From NCBI RefSeq assembly GCF_026723765.1, contig NZ_CP113524.1, forward strand, positions 1,287,001-1,351,000: 64,000 nt of DNA, written 5' to 3'. Within the stretch, counting starts at the first letter, position 1. Each line of letters begins with the position of its first letter. The stretch is from Lacrimispora xylanolytica. GTDB lineage: Bacteria; Bacillota; Clostridia; Lachnospirales; Lachnospiraceae. The notes beneath the pieces are model-generated. The model searched no databases. It was not told the origin of the DNA and saw only the letters and a program-made list of their open reading frames with translations. Shown piece by piece: positions 7,280-64,000 of this stretch. The position numbers and the translations under genes were made by a program.

Positions 7280-8170
7280 ATGTATAGGATTCTAAAAGCA
7301 GAATTGTTGGCCGACAAGATCTATCTGATGGATGTGGAAGCACCCCGGATCGCAAAAGCCTGTCAGCCAGGAGAGTTTGTTATCGTTAAGATGGATGACA
7401 AAGGGGAGAGAATTCCTCTCACCATTTGTGACTATAATCGGGAAGAAGGTTCGATTACAATTGTATTTCAGACTGTTGGCTCCAGCACCCAGAAGATGGC
7501 GGTTTTAAAGGCCGGAGACAGCTTTGAGGATGTGGTGGGACCATTAGGAAATCCCTCTGAATTCGTTCATGAAGATATCGAGGAGTTAAAGAAGAAAAAG
7601 TTCTTATTTGTGGCCGGAGGCGTGGGTACAGCACCGGTTTATCCTCAGGTAAAATGGATGAGAGAGCATGGCATTGATGTGGATGTAATCGTAGGTTCCA
7701 AGACTAAGAATCTTTTGATTCTTGAGGATGCCATGAGAGAACAGGCCGGCAATCTCTATGTTACAACGGATGACGGTTCCTATGAAAGAAAAGGAATGGT
7801 AACAGAAGTAATCAAGGATCTGGTACATAATCAGGGGAAGAAATACGATGTTTGTGTAGCCATCGGTCCTATGATTATGATGAAGTTTGTCTGCCTTTTA
7901 ACAAAAGAGCTTGAGATTCCAACCATTGTAAGTTTAAATCCGGTTATGGTAGACGGAACCGGCATGTGCGGTGCCTGTCGTATTACTGTTGGCGGTGAAG
8001 TGAAATTCGCCTGTGTAGATGGACCTGAATTTGACGGCCATCTGGTAAACTTTGATGAAGCCATGAAGCGTCAGATGATGTACAAGTCAGAAGAAGGACG
8101 TGCGGTTTTAAAGGAAAGTGAAGGCGATACCCATCACGGTGGATGCGGACAGTGTGGAGGTGACGAGTAA
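7280..8170 (+). CDS. nfnA: NADH-dependent ferredoxin:NADP+ oxidoreductase, small subunit (sulfide/dihydroorotate dehydrogenase-like)
   Basis: FAD and [2Fe-2S] subunit of the electron-bifurcating NfnAB complex, which couples NADH and reduced ferredoxin to NADP+ reduction. The 296-residue protein has an FAD-binding RIPLTI motif near residue 48, an NAD-binding GGVGTAP near 115, and a C-terminal cluster motif CGACRITV then C (about residues 233-247) preceded by GTGM. A glycine/cysteine tail ends in GGCGQCGGDE. I chose ATG 7280 because AGGAGG lies 6-7 bases upstream; an upstream in-frame start at 7223 has no ribosome site. The stop overlaps the start of the partner gene (TAATG). Confidence 0.88.
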   Translation: MYRILKAELLADKIYLMDVEAPRIAKACQPGEFVIVKMDDKGERIPLTICDYNREEGSITIVFQTVGSSTQKMAVLKAGDSFEDVVGPLGNPSEFVHEDIEELKKKKFLFVAGGVGTAPVYPQVKWMREHGIDVDVIVGSKTKNLLILEDAMREQAGNLYVTTDDGSYERKGMVTEVIKDLVHNQGKKYDVCVAIGPMIMMKFVCLLTKELEIPTIVSLNPVMVDGTGMCGACRITVGGEVKFACVDGPEFDGHLVNFDEAMKRQMMYKSEEGRAVLKESEGDTHHGGCGQCGGDE

Positions 8171-9558
8171 TGGACGTTTTAAAGAAAGTACCAGTAAGAG
8201 AACAGAATCCAAAGGTAAGAGCAACTAATTTTGAGGAAGTCTGCCTTGGATACAATGAAGAAGAAGCAAGAGAGGAAGCTTCACGCTGCATCAAGTGTAA
8301 AAACCCAAGATGTGTGGGCGGCTGTCCTGTTTCCATAAATATTCCAGGATTTATTAAAGAAGTGGAAGACGGTAATATCGAAGAAGCATCAAAGATCATT
8401 GCATTGTCTTCTGCCCTGCCTGCGGTATGCGGACGTGTATGCCCCCAGGAAAGTCAGTGTGAAGGCGTATGCATCCGTGGAATCAAGGGAGAACCGGTTT
8501 CCATTGGAAAGCTGGAGCGTTTCGTAGCGGATTGGTCCAGAGAACACGGTATCGTACCTCAGGCTCCAGAAAAGACCAACGGAAAAAAGGTAGCAGTCAT
8601 TGGTTCCGGCCCCTCCGGCCTTACCTGTGCGGGGGACCTTGCAAAGCTTGGTTATGAAGTGACCATTTTCGAAGCTCTTCATGAGCCAGGCGGAGTTTTG
8701 ACCTATGGTATCCCAGAGTTCCGTCTTCCCAAGGAACGCGTGGTTCAGCCTGAGATTGACAACGTAAGAAAGCTTGGCGTAACCATTGAGACCAATGTAA
8801 TCATTGGTAAATCTGTAACCATTGATCAGCTTTTCGATGAGGAAGGTTTTCAGGCCGTATTCATCGGTTCCGGTGCCGGACTCCCCATGTTTATGGGAAT
8901 ACCAGGTGAGAATGCCAACGGCGTATTCTCAGCCAATGAATATTTAACCAGAAGCAACCTGATGAAAGCATTCCGCGATGATTATGACACACCGATTGCA
9001 GCAGGCAAGAAGGTAGCAGTCGTAGGCGGCGGAAACGTTGCCATGGATGCAGCCAGAACAGCGCTTCGTCTTGGTGCAGAGGTTCATGTTGTTTATAGGA
9101 GAAGTGAAGCAGAGCTTCCTGCCAGAGCAGAAGAAGTTCATCACGCAAAAGAAGAAGGTATTATTTTTGACCTGCTGACCAATCCGACTGAAATCTTAAC
9201 CGATGAAAAAGGCTGGGTCAATGGAATGAAATGCATTAGAATGGAACTTGGAGAACCGGATGCATCCGGCAGAAGAAAACCGGTAGAGGTTAAGGATTCT
9301 GAATTTGTCATTGACGTAGATACCGTCATTATGTCTCTTGGTACCTCACCAAATCCTCTGATTTCCAATACGACTAAGGGATTGGATATCAATAAGCGCA
9401 GATGTATTATTGCGGAAGAGGATACTGGAAAGACCAGCAAGGAAGGCGTTTATGCCGGCGGAGATGCAGTAACAGGTGCTGCGACCGTAATTCTTGCCAT
9501 GGAAGCCGGCCGTGCCGGTGCCAGAGGAATTCACGAATTTCTTTCTGCCAAGGATTGA
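8170..9558 (+). CDS. gltA: NADPH-dependent glutamate synthase-like subunit (NfnB / GltA)
   Basis: Large flavoprotein partner of the preceding gene. The 462-residue protein has two N-terminal 4Fe-4S cysteine groups (CIKCKNPRCVGGCP near residues 40-53; CGRVCPQESQCEGVC near 86-100), an FAD dinucleotide fold (GSGPSGL near 145), and an NADPH fold (GGGNVAMDAARTAL near 284). This is the GltD/NfnB architecture. In Clostridia this gene is usually annotated gltA, but the partner here is NfnA-like and no glutamate synthase large subunit is nearby, so bifurcating transhydrogenase is the more likely job. Start and stop overlap the neighbour by one base. Confidence 0.9.
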   Translation: MDVLKKVPVREQNPKVRATNFEEVCLGYNEEEAREEASRCIKCKNPRCVGGCPVSINIPGFIKEVEDGNIEEASKIIALSSALPAVCGRVCPQESQCEGVCIRGIKGEPVSIGKLERFVADWSREHGIVPQAPEKTNGKKVAVIGSGPSGLTCAGDLAKLGYEVTIFEALHEPGGVLTYGIPEFRLPKERVVQPEIDNVRKLGVTIETNVIIGKSVTIDQLFDEEGFQAVFIGSGAGLPMFMGIPGENANGVFSANEYLTRSNLMKAFRDDYDTPIAAGKKVAVVGGGNVAMDAARTALRLGAEVHVVYRRSEAELPARAEEVHHAKEEGIIFDLLTNPTEILTDEKGWVNGMKCIRMELGEPDASGRRKPVEVKDSEFVIDVDTVIMSLGTSPNPLISNTTKGLDINKRRCIIAEEDTGKTSKEGVYAGGDAVTGAATVILAMEAGRAGARGIHEFLSAKD

Positions 9559-60150: not shown

Positions 60151-61374
60151 ATGGATTGTTATGCAAAACAAGGATATCCCGACGGCTTCGACCGTAACGG
60201 TACATCCTACCCATGGGAGCCTGCTATGGGCTTTGATATGTCTATGAGCCCCGGTACGGTAATCCGCCCTGATATGCCTCTTGGCTCAGGCCCGGCAAGG
60301 ACCAATGATCCAGTACCAGCTCCCATACCATTGAGCCGCCAGGATATTTCTGTTGGCCCATGTTCCTGGAACCAAAGACCATGCTGTAACGTATCAAACA
60401 GCGCTGCAAATAATTGTACAATGAAATGTCCGGAAAGACCAAGCTGCGTAATGCCGGCAAAATGTCCGGAGAGACCAAGCTGCGTAATGCCGGCAAAATG
60501 CCCGGAGAGACCAAGCTGCGTAATGCCGGCAAAATGCCCGGAGAGACCAAGCTGCGTAATGCCAGCAAAATGTGTAGAAAAACCAAGCTGTGTGATGCCA
60601 GTAAGATGTCCGGAGAAACCTTCTTGCGTAATGCCAGCAAGAGTGATGCCAGCAAAATGTGTAGAAAAACCCTCATGTGTGATGCCAGCAAAATGTGTAG
60701 AAAAGCCATCCTGCGTAATGCCAGCAAAATGTGTTGAGAAGCCTTCCTGCGTAATGCCAGCAAAATGTGTAGAAAAACCCTCTTGCGTAATGCCAGCAAA
60801 ATGTGTAGAAAAGCCTTCCTGCGTAATGCCAGCAAAATGTGTAGAGAAGCCCTCCTGCGTAATGCCAGCAAAATGTCCAGAGAAACCCTCCTGTGTGATG
60901 CCGGCAAGATGTCCAGAAAAGCCTTCCTGTGTGAAACCGGCAAGATGTCCGGAAAGACCATCTTGTGTAATGCCAGCAAAGTGTCCAGAGAAACCTTCTT
61001 GTGTAATGCCAGCAAAGTGTCCGGAGAAACCATCTTGTGTGATGCCGGCAAGATGTCCAGAAAAACCTTCCTGTGTAAAACCAGCAAAATGTCCAGAAAA
61101 ACCAAGCTGCGTGATGCCGGCAAAATGTCCTGAGCCCTCATTCACATCTCCAGCTACGAGTCCCTGCTGGTCTCCAGCTCCAAACGTATGTCCGGGCTGG
61201 TGTCCGCCTCCCGCTGCTGAAGCAGCTACCGAATGCATTGACCAATATCCAGTTGGAATGGCTTATGTGCCATGGCAGAACTGGCAGCAGGTTTATTCTG
61301 TTGAAACAGCAATAAATATGGGTACAATTTTCCCTGATTTATTTAAACCATTTACGATGGGAGGGTGCCGCTGA
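60151..61374 (+). CDS. cotJA: CotJA-type spore coat protein with a long cysteine-rich repeat array
   Basis: A 407-residue spore-coat protein. The C-terminal 40 residues (YVPWQNWQQVYSVETAINMG, then TIFPDLFKPF) are the CotJA domain. Between a Pro/Gly/Asp-rich start and this domain lie 19 full copies of a 12-residue unit of the form K/R-C-P/V-E-K/R-P-S-C-V-M/K-P-A, plus partial units, giving nearly 40 cysteines. Ordinary CotJA is about 80 residues, so this is a large expansion. Disulfide cross-linking in the coat is likely (inference). ATG 60151 has GAAAGGAG. The stop overlaps the cotJB start (TGATG). Confidence 0.85.
   Translation: MDCYAKQGYPDGFDRNGTSYPWEPAMGFDMSMSPGTVIRPDMPLGSGPARTNDPVPAPIPLSRQDISVGPCSWNQRPCCNVSNSAANNCTMKCPERPSCVMPAKCPERPSCVMPAKCPERPSCVMPAKCPERPSCVMPAKCVEKPSCVMPVRCPEKPSCVMPARVMPAKCVEKPSCVMPAKCVEKPSCVMPAKCVEKPSCVMPAKCVEKPSCVMPAKCVEKPSCVMPAKCVEKPSCVMPAKCPEKPSCVMPARCPEKPSCVKPARCPERPSCVMPAKCPEKPSCVMPAKCPEKPSCVMPARCPEKPSCVKPAKCPEKPSCVMPAKCPEPSFTSPATSPCWSPAPNVCPGWCPPPAAEAATECIDQYPVGMAYVPWQNWQQVYSVETAINMGTIFPDLFKPFTMGGCR
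60421..61134 (+). repeat. Tandem 36-base coding repeats in cotJA
   Basis: About 19.8 units of 36 bases with two main subtypes (CPE and CVE), in blocks: four near-identical CPER units, then six CVEK units, then mixed CPEK/CPER units. The block pattern shows recent local duplication. A partial unit (RVMPA) after the sixth copy marks an unequal event. Confidence 0.9.
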
Positions 61375-61709
61375 TGAGTTGTAATATGAATTGTAACATG
61401 GATTGTAACATCGATTGTAACATGGATTGTAACATGGGCAATACCATGGGCAGTAACGTGGATTGCGATATGTTATTAAAACATGTTTACCAAGCCAGTT
61501 TTGCATTGGATGACGTGGTATTGTATCTTGACACTCATCCCTGTGATAAGGATGCATTAAACTTTTATTATTATGTTTCAGATTTAAGAAGAAGAGCAGT
61601 TGAGGCGTATGAAGAGCAGTGTGGCCCTCTGATGACAGATGGTGTTATGGATAAAAATTATTGGACCTGGATTAATGATCCATGGCCATGGGAAGGAGTG
61701 TGCGGCTGA
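61374..61709 (+). CDS. cotJB: Spore coat protein CotJB with Cys-rich N-terminal repeats
   Basis: A 111-residue coat protein. Residues about 35-111 are the CotJB domain (LLKHVYQASFALDDVVLYLDTHPCDKDAL, YYVSDLRRRAVEAYEEQCGPL, WTWINDPWPWEG). The first 33 residues are Asn/Met/Cys/Asp repeats (NMNCNMDCNIDCNMDCNM) encoded by short DNA repeats; they are an extra over usual CotJB. The ATG overlaps the cotJA stop, and its own stop overlaps the cotJC start (TGATG), so all three are coupled. Confidence 0.88.
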   Translation: MSCNMNCNMDCNIDCNMDCNMGNTMGSNVDCDMLLKHVYQASFALDDVVLYLDTHPCDKDALNFYYYVSDLRRRAVEAYEEQCGPLMTDGVMDKNYWTWINDPWPWEGVCG

Positions 61710-61825
61710 TGTGGAGATATGAAAAAAGATTACAGTATCCGGTAAACATTACCACTCCCAATCCCAAGATTGCCACTTTCATTATGAGTCAGTACGGCGG
61801 GCCTTATTGTAACAGCAGATAAGTT
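61709..61825 (+). pseudogene. cotJC: cotJC, interrupted after about 33 codons
   Basis: The first 33 residues (MWRYEKRLQYPVNI, then PNPKIATFIMSQYGGP) match the start of CotJC, a manganese-catalase-like coat protein of about 190 residues. After QYGGP the sequence leaves the family (expected next D-G-E-L) and reads YCNSR-stop. The rest of the gene is not in the window. A serine recombinase gene begins, on the other strand, at 61863, so the break is the edge of an integrated element. Whether the gene is rebuilt by excision in the mother cell is an inference. Confidence 0.85.
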
Positions 61826-61860
61826 TTCACAAAAGAACCCTGGTTCTACTGGTTATAGTA
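61795..61860. other. Putative attachment-site half (att) at the cotJC junction
   Basis: The element edge lies within or just after TACGGCGGGCC of cotJC. About 30 bases further is a palindrome AGAACC-CT-GGTTCT (61834-61847), and the recombinase stop is at 61863. Large serine recombinases act on such short palindromic sites beside their own gene, so this is the likely attL or attR. Confidence 0.5.
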
Positions 61861-61862
61861 CT

Positions 61863-63341
61863 TTAATAATAGAAGAACCTCACCGTATTACGCTCCTTAT
61901 CATAAACGATTCTTTTTACAATAGTCCTTAAAGCAGTCCCTTTAATCGTGTTATCGGTATCTGGGTCGGATAATATTTCATAAGCACTTTTGATTTTGAA
62001 CAGCTGCCGGCTGTTTTTCTTACCGACATTATCAACCAGTTTTCTTTTTATATCATTATATTGTCTGTCTAATTCCATTCTTTCGCTCTCTAAGCGCTCT
62101 TTGCTGCATTTATATTCCTCTATGGAATCAATTCCTTTTTCGTATGCTTCCTTAATTCTTGCCAGCTTAGCCGCATTCCTCAGACGGGCTGCTTTATTTT
62201 TTTCTGCTTCGTCATCCTTTATTAAATCTGGCTTCTTTTTATATTCACATTCTTGTTCCCCAAAATCAAGGACATTTTTTAAGGACTCCAGAATAAGAGT
62301 CTCTGCTTTGCTTACGGTAATACTACAGGATTGGGAGTGAGTCCCCTTGGCATACCGCCAGCATTGAAAATAACCATTTTTAAGATTTGTTTTACCAGCT
62401 CTGTTGCACCCCAGGCTTGCCCCGCAATAACCACAAGTCAGGAGACCTGAGGCCCAATGCCTGCAATCGGAGCTTTCTCTTCTGTTTCTGGGGCGAAATT
62501 CCCTTTGAAGCCGGCTCTGATTGTCATGAAAGACAGAGGTCACGGAGCTTCTTACTTCATGAGACCCATGAAAGGATATGTCTTTCCATATGACAATCCC
62601 GTTATAAAACTGATTGGTCAATATACGTTCGATGGAACGTCTGTCAAATGAATTTCCTCTCTTGGTCAAATACCCTCTTTCGTTCGCTTCTCTGGCAATG
62701 GAAGATAAATCCATGCCGTTATGGTAGGATTGGTGAATGAATTCCACAATTTTATATTCTTCCTCCTGAATAAGAAACGGCTTTCCACCTCCCCGGGCAG
62801 TATAACCAAGGCAAGGGGTAGTCTGATATCCTTCCCTTAGGGCCTTTTCTGTCATGCCCCGCGTTACCTCTCCGGAGAGATTAAATGAGTAGTACTCATC
62901 AAACCATTCAATAATGCTTTCAATCAAACGTCCGAACATGCCTTCCATAATAGGCTCTGATACACTTTTGATGGTTACCCCGCATTTCTTACGGAGAACA
63001 CTTTTGTAAAAGGTACTTTCCTCCTGGTTTCTTGCAAATCTGGAAAATTTCCATAGATAAAGATACTGAAAGGGAGAGGGCTGTGATTTTGCAATGGAAA
63101 TCATTCGCTGAAATTCTTTCCGATTATCAGCACGGCGGCCGCTTACTCCTCTTTCTTCTATAAAAATATATTCTTTTGGAATGATAATACCATCTGCTTT
63201 TGCAGCCTTCATAATTTCTCTTACCTGAGCAGCTGGTGATAATTCAGTCTGATCATTGGTGCTTACCCTTACATAAGCAGCCCCGGTTTCATTGGATTCA
63301 TATCTTTTCAATCTATAATCACTTCTTTCTGCTTGCCCCAT
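61863..63341 (-). CDS. Large serine recombinase
   Basis: Site-specific integrase/excisionase of about 490 residues. Order: resolvase N-terminal catalytic domain (YVRVSTNDQTE with the nucleophile Ser, RGVSGRRADNRKEFQRMI, LWKFSRFARN), recombinase domain (GYTARGGGKPF, REANERGYLTKRGNSF, ILTNQFYNGI), zinc ribbon (CGYCGASLGC ... FQCWRY ... SCS), and a coiled coil rich in Lys/Glu/Arg. The start is uncertain: ATG 63341 is used here, ATG 63380 is possible and TTG 63311 has the only weak ribosome site. Its 3' end is about 60 bases from the cotJC break. Confidence 0.9.
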   Translation of the reverse strand: MGQAERSDYRLKRYESNETGAAYVRVSTNDQTELSPAAQVREIMKAAKADGIIIPKEYIFIEERGVSGRRADNRKEFQRMISIAKSQPSPFQYLYLWKFSRFARNQEESTFYKSVLRKKCGVTIKSVSEPIMEGMFGRLIESIIEWFDEYYSFNLSGEVTRGMTEKALREGYQTTPCLGYTARGGGKPFLIQEEEYKIVEFIHQSYHNGMDLSSIAREANERGYLTKRGNSFDRRSIERILTNQFYNGIVIWKDISFHGSHEVRSSVTSVFHDNQSRLQREFRPRNRRESSDCRHWASGLLTCGYCGASLGCNRAGKTNLKNGYFQCWRYAKGTHSQSCSITVSKAETLILESLKNVLDFGEQECEYKKKPDLIKDDEAEKNKAARLRNAAKLARIKEAYEKGIDSIEEYKCSKERLESERMELDRQYNDIKRKLVDNVGKKNSRQLFKIKSAYEILSDPDTDNTIKGTALRTIVKRIVYDKERNTVRFFYY

Positions 63342-63403
63342 GGAAAATGGCGAAACAAGTACAATCCATGTCACATACATTTTATCAGGAAGGGGCGGAG
63401 AAT

Positions 63404-63562
63404 ATGAATAAAATGCCGGTAATAGAAAATTACATAGAAATAAATGGTAAAACGATTCTTATAGATTCATTGCCAAAGGAAAAAAGAGAGGAAATAGCAG
63501 AAGTGCTACAGGACAAATTTATGGAATCCATGGGCTATCAGCGTATTAAGACACTAAAATAG
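63404..63562 (+). CDS. Small element-encoded protein, unknown
   Basis: A 52-residue protein beginning MNKMPVIENYIEINGKTI and ending GYQRIKTLK, with a helical acidic middle. It is divergent from the recombinase gene with about 20 to 60 bases between starts, and AAGGGGCGGAG precedes the ATG. I do not recognise it firmly. Small proteins beside large serine recombinases can be recombination directionality factors (SprB, for example, is about this size), so that role is worth testing; there is no sequence proof. Confidence 0.5.
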   Translation: MNKMPVIENYIEINGKTILIDSLPKEKREEIAEVLQDKFMESMGYQRIKTLK

Positions 63563-63575
63563 GTTAAATGGAGGA

Positions 63576-63605
63576 AGCCGGCAGAATGATACCATCCTGC
63601 CGGCT
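63576..63605. terminator. Hairpin after the small element protein
   Basis: AGCCGGCAG / CTGCCGGCT, 9 base pairs, without a clear T-run; a weak terminator. Confidence 0.45.
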
Positions 63606-63818
63606 GAGTATGAAAAAGTTTTGAATAAAAGGGTTATTACCTTCTATACATGTTAATATACAGGTTATATGTGTTGATAATTTGTAGAAAATGTGATGTT
63701 TTAGTGAAATAGATGATGCAAATGGTGGAGTCATTTCCTCCAAGGAATAGGATTGTATCAAAGGGGCCAAAATGTAATGAGTAGAGAAAATTTGATGTGG
63801 GATTAAAGGAGGAAAAAC

Positions 63819-64000
63819 GTGAAAAGGACAGTGGTATTTGACTTTGATGGTGTGATCCATAGCTATAAACAGCGTTACGTAAGTGCGGAAGTGATACCGG
63901 ATGAGCCGGTAGAAGGAATCAGGGAGGCCATCCATAGCATCAGAGCTGCAGGCTATGACGTAGTGGTCGTCTCTTCCAGGGCATCAAGTGCAGAAGGAAA
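63819..64000 (+). CDS. HAD-family hydrolase (3' end cut)
   Basis: A GTG-started frame after AAAGGAGG, open to the window end (60 codons seen). VVFDFDGVIHSY is the HAD nucleophile motif I (DxD), followed by PDEPVEGIREAIHSIRAAGYDVVVVSSRAS with motif II (SSR). The shape matches small HAD hydrolases found in phages and mobile elements. It is part of the element inserted in cotJC. Confidence 0.75.
   Translation, partial: MKRTVVFDFDGVIHSYKQRYVSAEVIPDEPVEGIREAIHSIRAAGYDVVVVSSRASSAEG

Follow-up and report, generated by a model that had tools for sequence, protein, structure and literature searches.

A small recombinase-encoding element splits the spore-coat gene cotJC in Lacrimispora xylanolytica and is probably excised in the mother cell

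In Bacillus and Clostridium, a small number of sporulation genes are known to carry intervening elements. According to passages in the published accounts, the temperate phage SP-beta splits the spore-envelope gene spsM of B. subtilis and is excised in sporulation (PMC4191935), and skinCd in sigK of C. difficile has 19 genes, including that of the directionality factor CD1234, which is under the control of sigma-E and SpoIIID from a start site 14 bp before the gene (PMC5025042). Passages likewise describe gin in gerE of B. cereus ATCC10987, a non-phage element with sporulation-specific excision, a large serine recombinase (LSR), GirC, and a factor, GirX (PMC5595907), and yin in yabG of C. botulinum V73, which has an LSR beside the 5′ part of the gene and a candidate recombination directionality factor (RDF) with a putative SigK promoter (PMC10747680). 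The prophage phi027 of C. difficile is reported, in the passages concerned, to adjoin a CotJC-like gene (PMC11222575, PMC12122855). In the present study, a 64,000 nucleotide stretch of the Lacrimispora xylanolytica genome was analysed (the window, G000:C1:1287001-1351000; G000 is a single contig, C1, of 4.52 Mb), in which the spore-coat gene cotJC is interrupted by an element that encodes an LSR. This is a real intervening element of the skin and SP-beta kind, unusually small and long-lived. It is proposed that the element is excised in the mother cell by the LSR under the direction of a small element-encoded protein, sm52, and that the gene is thereby rebuilt; the probability of this proposal as a whole is put at about 0.86.

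The split cotJC gene and the ends of the element

In the second cotJABC operon of this genome, cotJA (60151..61374, +; PF11007, E 4.6e-16) is followed by cotJB (61365..61709, +; PF12652, E 9.9e-29) and by the 5′ part of cotJC (61709..61800, +), taken to the proposed crossover dinucleotide. The frame from the ATG at 61709 reads MWRYEKRLQYPVNITTPNPKIATFIMSQYGGP; its first 32 residues match the family profile, beyond this there is no family likeness, and the interruption falls within codon 31. The 3′ part lies 1.2 kb beyond the window (G000:C1:1352206-1352727), is in frame and stop-free, and begins GGTGGACC-CGATGGAGAG. A sequence-only reading of the window had given these places for cotJA, cotJB and the start of cotJC, the divergence of cotJC at QYGGP and a recombinase gene about 60 bases from the break; the family matches and open reading frames (ORFs) agree with it on each, the LSR gene ending 59 bases past the core octamer. 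The cotJC remainder that it expected downstream, with the same short core, is also present, at a core-to-core distance of 3,410 bp. The split is not due to chance, because the same codon is split in 17 of the 25 genus genomes.

The left core octamer, GGCGGGCC (attL), is at 61796..61803 (+). When the element ends are joined head to tail, as in attP, the palindrome is centred in the middle of the GGNGGNCC octamer in all four loci tested for its centre, and because of this the GG at 61799-61800, belonging to the second glycine codon, is proposed as the likely crossover. The inverted-repeat score of the attP arms, summed over 14 loci that include some near-duplicates, is 152, compared to a mean of 79 and a maximum of 104 in 2000 shuffles.

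Between the cotJC halves, the gene order is LSR (-), sm52 (+), HAD-like (+), PdaC/DUF3298-like (-), and sm54 (+). The LSR is a 505-aa ORF (61863..63380, -), although translation probably begins closer to 63311. Resolvase, Recombinase, and Zn-ribbon domains (PF00239, PF07508, and PF13408) are recognised in it, and it matches the phrog_95 integrase (E 5.5e-80). Its N-terminal Y-x-R-V-S-T motif is invariant in 27 aligned sequences and its frame is intact in 33 out of 33 loci. The nearest named record is the LSR of Clostridium sp. 12(A), which is 100 % identical across the match; other named Lacrimispora species among the matches, which place the genus, are L. xylanisolvens, L. amygdalina, and L. 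celerecrescens. None of the five element ORFs searched against PHROGs matched a structural phage family, and the structural genes that mark a temperate phage or prophage are therefore not a feature of this element. Three of the features that mark an intervening element were found: a sporulation gene split with both parts in frame, an encoded LSR, and att sites with a short core and inverted repeats.

Within the same operon, cotJA has a long CPEKPSCVMPA-type repeat; the run of CPEKPSCVMPAK-type repeats, at window positions 60430-61130, has no counterpart in the 65-aa paralogous cotJA. A CATA-containing stretch upstream of this cotJA is conserved in the window genome and the 11 other loci inspected.

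Distribution, selection and descent in the genus

The 25 genus genomes were searched for cotJC and for the element. The 17 with the element at this codon are G000, G001, G003, G004, G006, G008, G009, G011, G012, G013, G015, G016, G018, G019, G022, G023, and G024. In G016 it was followed to the contig edge only, and in G001 it spans two contigs, the cotJB and 5′ cotJC side not being found in the assembly; a partial extra cotJC 3′ half is seen just downstream of the intact one in G001 (L046 7295-7636). The split cotJC is the only cotJC found in G011. This cotJC (cotJC-2) is whole and uninterrupted in G020 and G021, whole at this site and split further along in G005, and whole with a leftover of the element in G002 and G010. 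G007 is ambiguous; it was considered as an excised allele and rejected, as its joined contig contains one additional base and is noisy at the end, and the assembly has no close E1 LSR either (best 33 % identity). Core-to-core length, measured at 14 loci, is 2,470-3,410 bp in 12, 5,058 bp in G006, and 9,280 bp in G019, where there is a tandem array.

Both halves of cotJC are under strong purifying selection. Pooled over nine interrupted species, pN/pS is 0.072 for the 5′ part and 0.071 for the 3′ part; pS itself is almost saturated here, at about 0.64-0.68. Higher values of pN/pS were obtained for cotJB (0.18), the LSR (0.25), the PdaC-like gene (0.31), and sm52 (0.46). The nine loci are distinct, with a full 3′ part and open halves (the stop of L056 lies beyond the reading cut), a same-species copy and near-duplicates (L045, L054, L058), twice-split loci (L036, L038, L039), and incomplete loci (L043, L052) having been left out.

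The element is vertically inherited in the genus. Distances between LSR proteins correlate with rpoB distances, with r 0.82 for 15 loci and r 0.92 for the 14 without G006 (0 out of 5000 permutations in each case), and a minimum of three state changes is needed on the rpoB tree. The outlier, G006, has a more distant LSR and different ORFs between the cotJC halves; its element is probably a later arrival, in a lineage in which the sisters G005, G020, and G021 are empty. In the sister species G002 and G010, the whole cotJC carries the predicted junction QYGGPDGE, followed in G002 by the usual cotJC hairpin and then by sm52. A search at E 1e-40 revealed no E1-type LSR in these two genomes, of which G010 is 67 % complete. 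The leftover cotJC 3′ part is, by eye, shortened in G002 and frame-shifted early in G010.

A candidate directionality factor and the proposed excision of the element

The candidate RDF, sm52 (63404..63562, +), is a 52-aa protein with homologues in mini-elements and prophages, being common to the mini-elements and to the cotJC-targeting prophages. It is modelled as a beta-hairpin and a helix (mean pLDDT 90). A profile from 13 genus sequences matches relatives in prophages and viral contigs, and, of the element genes, only those for the LSR and sm52 were matched by tblastn in the non-Lacrimispora loci examined. Upstream is a sigma-E/sigma-K-like promoter block, ACAAGTACAATC-N7-CATACATTTTA (63355..63384, +), identified by its conservation in the genus alignment, in which the aligned loci have the block GGAAACARGTACAATCYRTGTCACATACATTTTAC with departures in G006, G002, and G010. 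The -10-like CATA and the AC about 16 bp upstream of it resemble the consensus of sigma-E and sigma-K promoters. A pattern derived from the block is present upstream of sm52 in 34 out of 34 Lacrimispora rows, duplicate records included, and in 18 of 33 non-redundant relatives from elsewhere, compared to 9 out of 3420 other ORFs (of at least 100 aa). It is nearly unique in the window genome (two matches with up to three mismatches, compared to two in the control) and therefore does not alone tie sm52 to a known regulon. A second-site element, found in four genomes (G004, G005, G006, and G015), has a small ORF preceded by the same motif in two of the four. Based on these sequence features, it is likely that sm52 is a directionality factor behind a mother-cell-type promoter.

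Junction evidence comes from two relatives. In G019 (Clostridium sp. Marseille-P2415), an attP-type junction is present in the assembly itself, where cotJA-cotJB-5′cotJC and the element are amplified in tandem (L055 3093-12908, reverse strand) and the junction lies between two element copies. In G001 ([Clostridium] aerotolerans DSM 5434), the element is a 3,417 bp contig that starts GGTGGGCC and stops ...CTCAGGTGG. Both ends sit at the base where attP diverges from attL and attR (for attL, the 5′ part of a sister, the window genome, was used), and exactly 95 nt of overlap are shared with the next contig; a cut of this kind by a graph assembler suggests a second continuation, such as attP would supply. 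The 3′ contig of G015, a metagenome-assembled genome, begins at the second-site core and has an overlap of 77 nt, of which strain mixture could be an alternative cause.

The 3.4 kb element is probably what remains of a lineage of temperate phages that targeted cotJC. In the sporulating mother cell, a sigma-E- or sigma-K-type promoter would turn on sm52, which as directionality factor would make the LSR excise rather than integrate. Recombination between attL and attR at the GG of GGN-GGN-CC would then give a seamless ...QYGG-PDGE... frame and a circular element. The element would be lost only from the mother cell, which dies, and would be retained by the spore, so that it would pass down vertically. 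The sequence-only reading had likewise suggested a sporulation-excised element. Its claim of gene-rebuilding excision is supported by the selection on the halves, the vertical inheritance, the att symmetry, the sm52 promoter, and the attP evidence in two relatives; the last step, in sporulating cells and in the strain of the window genome, is presumed from these comparisons.

A number of observations weigh against this proposal. There is no significant sequence or fold match for sm52 among solved proteins, and hence none to a known RDF. The promoter pattern is missing in 15 of the 33 non-redundant relatives outside the genus, in at least one of them (L247) through a misplaced start. Singly, arm symmetry is weak in two of the 14 loci (L059, P 0.26; L039, P 0.05). 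Tandem copies, and not free circles, could be the source of the attP evidence, and among 35 named loci that reach a contig end no further one was found to end at the core: in two the octamer is 80 and 176 nt from the end, neither being a clear case, and the pattern used is one that misses the DSM 5434 contig, the ends of which are cut inside the octamer. A cotJC paralogue was found in 24 of the 25 genus genomes, so that cells might do without cotJC-2; the operon of cotJC-2 is absent from G014 and G017. Lastly, that excision takes place during sporulation is something we infer from sequence.

Excision by the LSR might be real and yet not tied to sporulation, the element excising rarely and at any stage, like a phage, with the rejoining in the mother cell incidental. 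Related LSRs do lie in viral contigs beside phage genes, and the contig ends of DSM 5434 derive from a culture without a recorded sporulation state. This is nevertheless unlikely, given the strong conservation of the block upstream of sm52, with a CATA-type -10 like those recognised by mother-cell sigma factors, and the vertical persistence of the element throughout the genus, which fits loss only in a dying cell. In B. subtilis, cotJABC are mother-cell genes, and a mother-cell role of cotJC itself also argues against excision at any time.

It is very unlikely that cotJC-2 is dead, killed by the element, and that a paralogue, cotJC-1, covers the function. The sequence-only reading had named an intact second cotJC, combined with a lack of excision, as evidence against its own suggestion, and the first of these is found in the window genome, where an intact cotJABC at about C1:3066.4-3067.6 kb has a cotJC 65 % identical to the split one. 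The frequency of the paralogue and the two genomes missing cotJC-2 would fit a dead gene. However, both halves are open and constrained in the nine interrupted species, the LSR frame is unbroken, and no other cotJC was found in G011; the selection on the halves and the decay of the orphaned 3′ part in G002 and G010 led to this explanation being set aside. Least credible is that the halves are separate cooperating polypeptides, or the 3′ half alone the product: an open frame with start codons precedes the 3′ part in the window genome, and likewise in nine of 15 loci, but the other six have an in-frame stop 0-2 codons ahead of the 3′ part and no start codon in the interval, and the frame is joined in the contiguous genes of G020, G021, G002, and G010. 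Excision in the mother cell is therefore preferred.

The other genes of the element are a HAD-IIIA-like hydrolase, of which only the start is in the window (63819..64000, running on, +; PF25109 above and TIGR01662 below cut-off), and, past the window, the PdaC-like gene (C1:1351204-1351869, -) and sm54 (C1:1351983-1352138, +). Elsewhere in this genome, sigK is also split (C1:2134583-2139448; L305 1081-5967), with profile matches 4.3 kb apart and a 556-aa LSR, a divergent 57-aa ORF, and further ORFs between the parts. Similar sigK pairs are present in many genus genomes, with a spacing of about 2.6-2.7 kb in G011 and G012. Three different LSR genes lie side by side a few kb beyond sigK (G000:C1:2143490-2147085; L305 9418-14201).

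Breaks in cotJC across the family and comparison with known elements

E1-type LSRs were found in 43 of 299 family genomes (E 1e-60). Of 79 named LSR loci, kept from the best 80 of 373 relatives, 73 have a cotJC match, the end of which is mostly near residue 30; the ends given by tblastn range from about 8 to 44, L144 aligns fully, and a few alignments cross the break. A cotJC piece was also found in 15 of the 80 viral loci examined. Two viral contigs were inspected: L175 combines a cotJC 5′ piece with replication genes of phage type, and L247 encodes tail and baseplate proteins, with no cotJC in the stretch examined. Across the family, cotJC was matched in 125 of 200 genomes and, among the matches listed, at least 47 genomes have pieces ending at one of four places (at least 17 near residue 30, 18 near 60, 7 near 137, and 5 near 178), as counted by eye, contig edges included, from cotJC matches alone without a recombinase check.

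Eighteen loci were picked for further breaks in cotJC. In 16 of them, the first break has an E1-type LSR no more than 0.5 kb away; the distance is 1.7 kb in L164 and 3.1 kb in L136. Eight loci have another, distinct LSR within 0.1 kb of the further break, which is near residue 65 (L104, L158, L163, L171), 136 (L107, L110, L172), or 180 (L169); such an LSR lies farther away in L094 (0.6 kb) and L111 (3.7 kb). In the other eight no second LSR was found within the stretch examined, several of these stretches ending soon after the break. In L104 (Clostridium sp. MCC353), a single contig holds cotJC in three parts together with two small elements; in L171 the gene is likewise in three parts, the third being followed by a fragment of another recombinase. 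The attP of the second-site element in the genus is strongly symmetric and centred on a GA core in four out of four genomes.

We lean slightly towards the view that cotJC in the Lachnospiraceae is serially interrupted, about four fixed attB sites (near residues 32, 65, 136, and 180) being used by different LSR elements, two or three at once. The parts would be joined in each mother cell by independent site-specific deletions, with directionality factors behind a common type of mother-cell promoter, and some elements would have shrunk to 2.5-3.4 kb and become vertically inherited in the manner of DNA introns. The odds are lowered because only some of the loci yielded a second LSR beside the further break.

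Among these elements, the first small element of L104 encodes a stand-alone Spo0A C-terminal domain protein (7798-8310; PF08769, E 1e-26). The second-site element (L064 5500-11450, L036 5630-11670) encodes an S8 peptidase (PF00082) and, by eye, sigma-factor-like, zinc-finger-like, and heavy-metal-domain-like ORFs.

A single coat gene is hit recurrently in this large, gut-associated family. Since the genus holds occupied, empty, re-fused, and doubly split cotJC alleles, it can be tested whether elements of this kind act as parasites or regulators or are carried neutrally, and the sm52 family offers many candidate pairs of LSR and directionality factor. In annotation, the split cotJC genes of this family may easily be labelled as truncated genes or as pseudogenes.

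In the open PMC literature searched, no element intervening in cotJC was found, phi027 being the nearest, and neither the target, the tiny size, nor the splitting at multiple sites was found there. Although phi027 is similarly a prophage next to a cotJC homologue, that gene is downstream of attR and the passages available make no claim of an interrupted coding sequence (PMC11222575, PMC12122855). As far as the accounts cited above describe them, SP-beta also splits a spore-envelope gene, and the cotJC element likewise has LSR relatives in viral contigs; it differs in being 3.4 kb long, without phage structural genes, and vertically inherited in the genus. With gin it shares the form of a non-phage gene-intervening element with an LSR and an extra factor, here the candidate sm52, whereas gin is described as 28.6 kb with three LSRs and the cotJC element has one LSR and 2.5-3.4 kb in 12 of 14 loci. 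The yin element is alike in having the LSR gene adjoin the 5′ part and a candidate RDF behind a putative mother-cell-type promoter, yet it is a predicted prophage reported as unique to one isolate, whereas the cotJC element is widespread in the family. The skin elements of B. subtilis and C. difficile, as described, are similar in the LSR-encoding insert in a mother-cell sporulation gene and, as predicted for cotJC, in the seamless rejoining and the small directionality factor. The target there is sigK and the excision proposed for cotJC is a predicted one; the promoter arrangement of sm52 resembles that described for CD1234 of the C. difficile skin.

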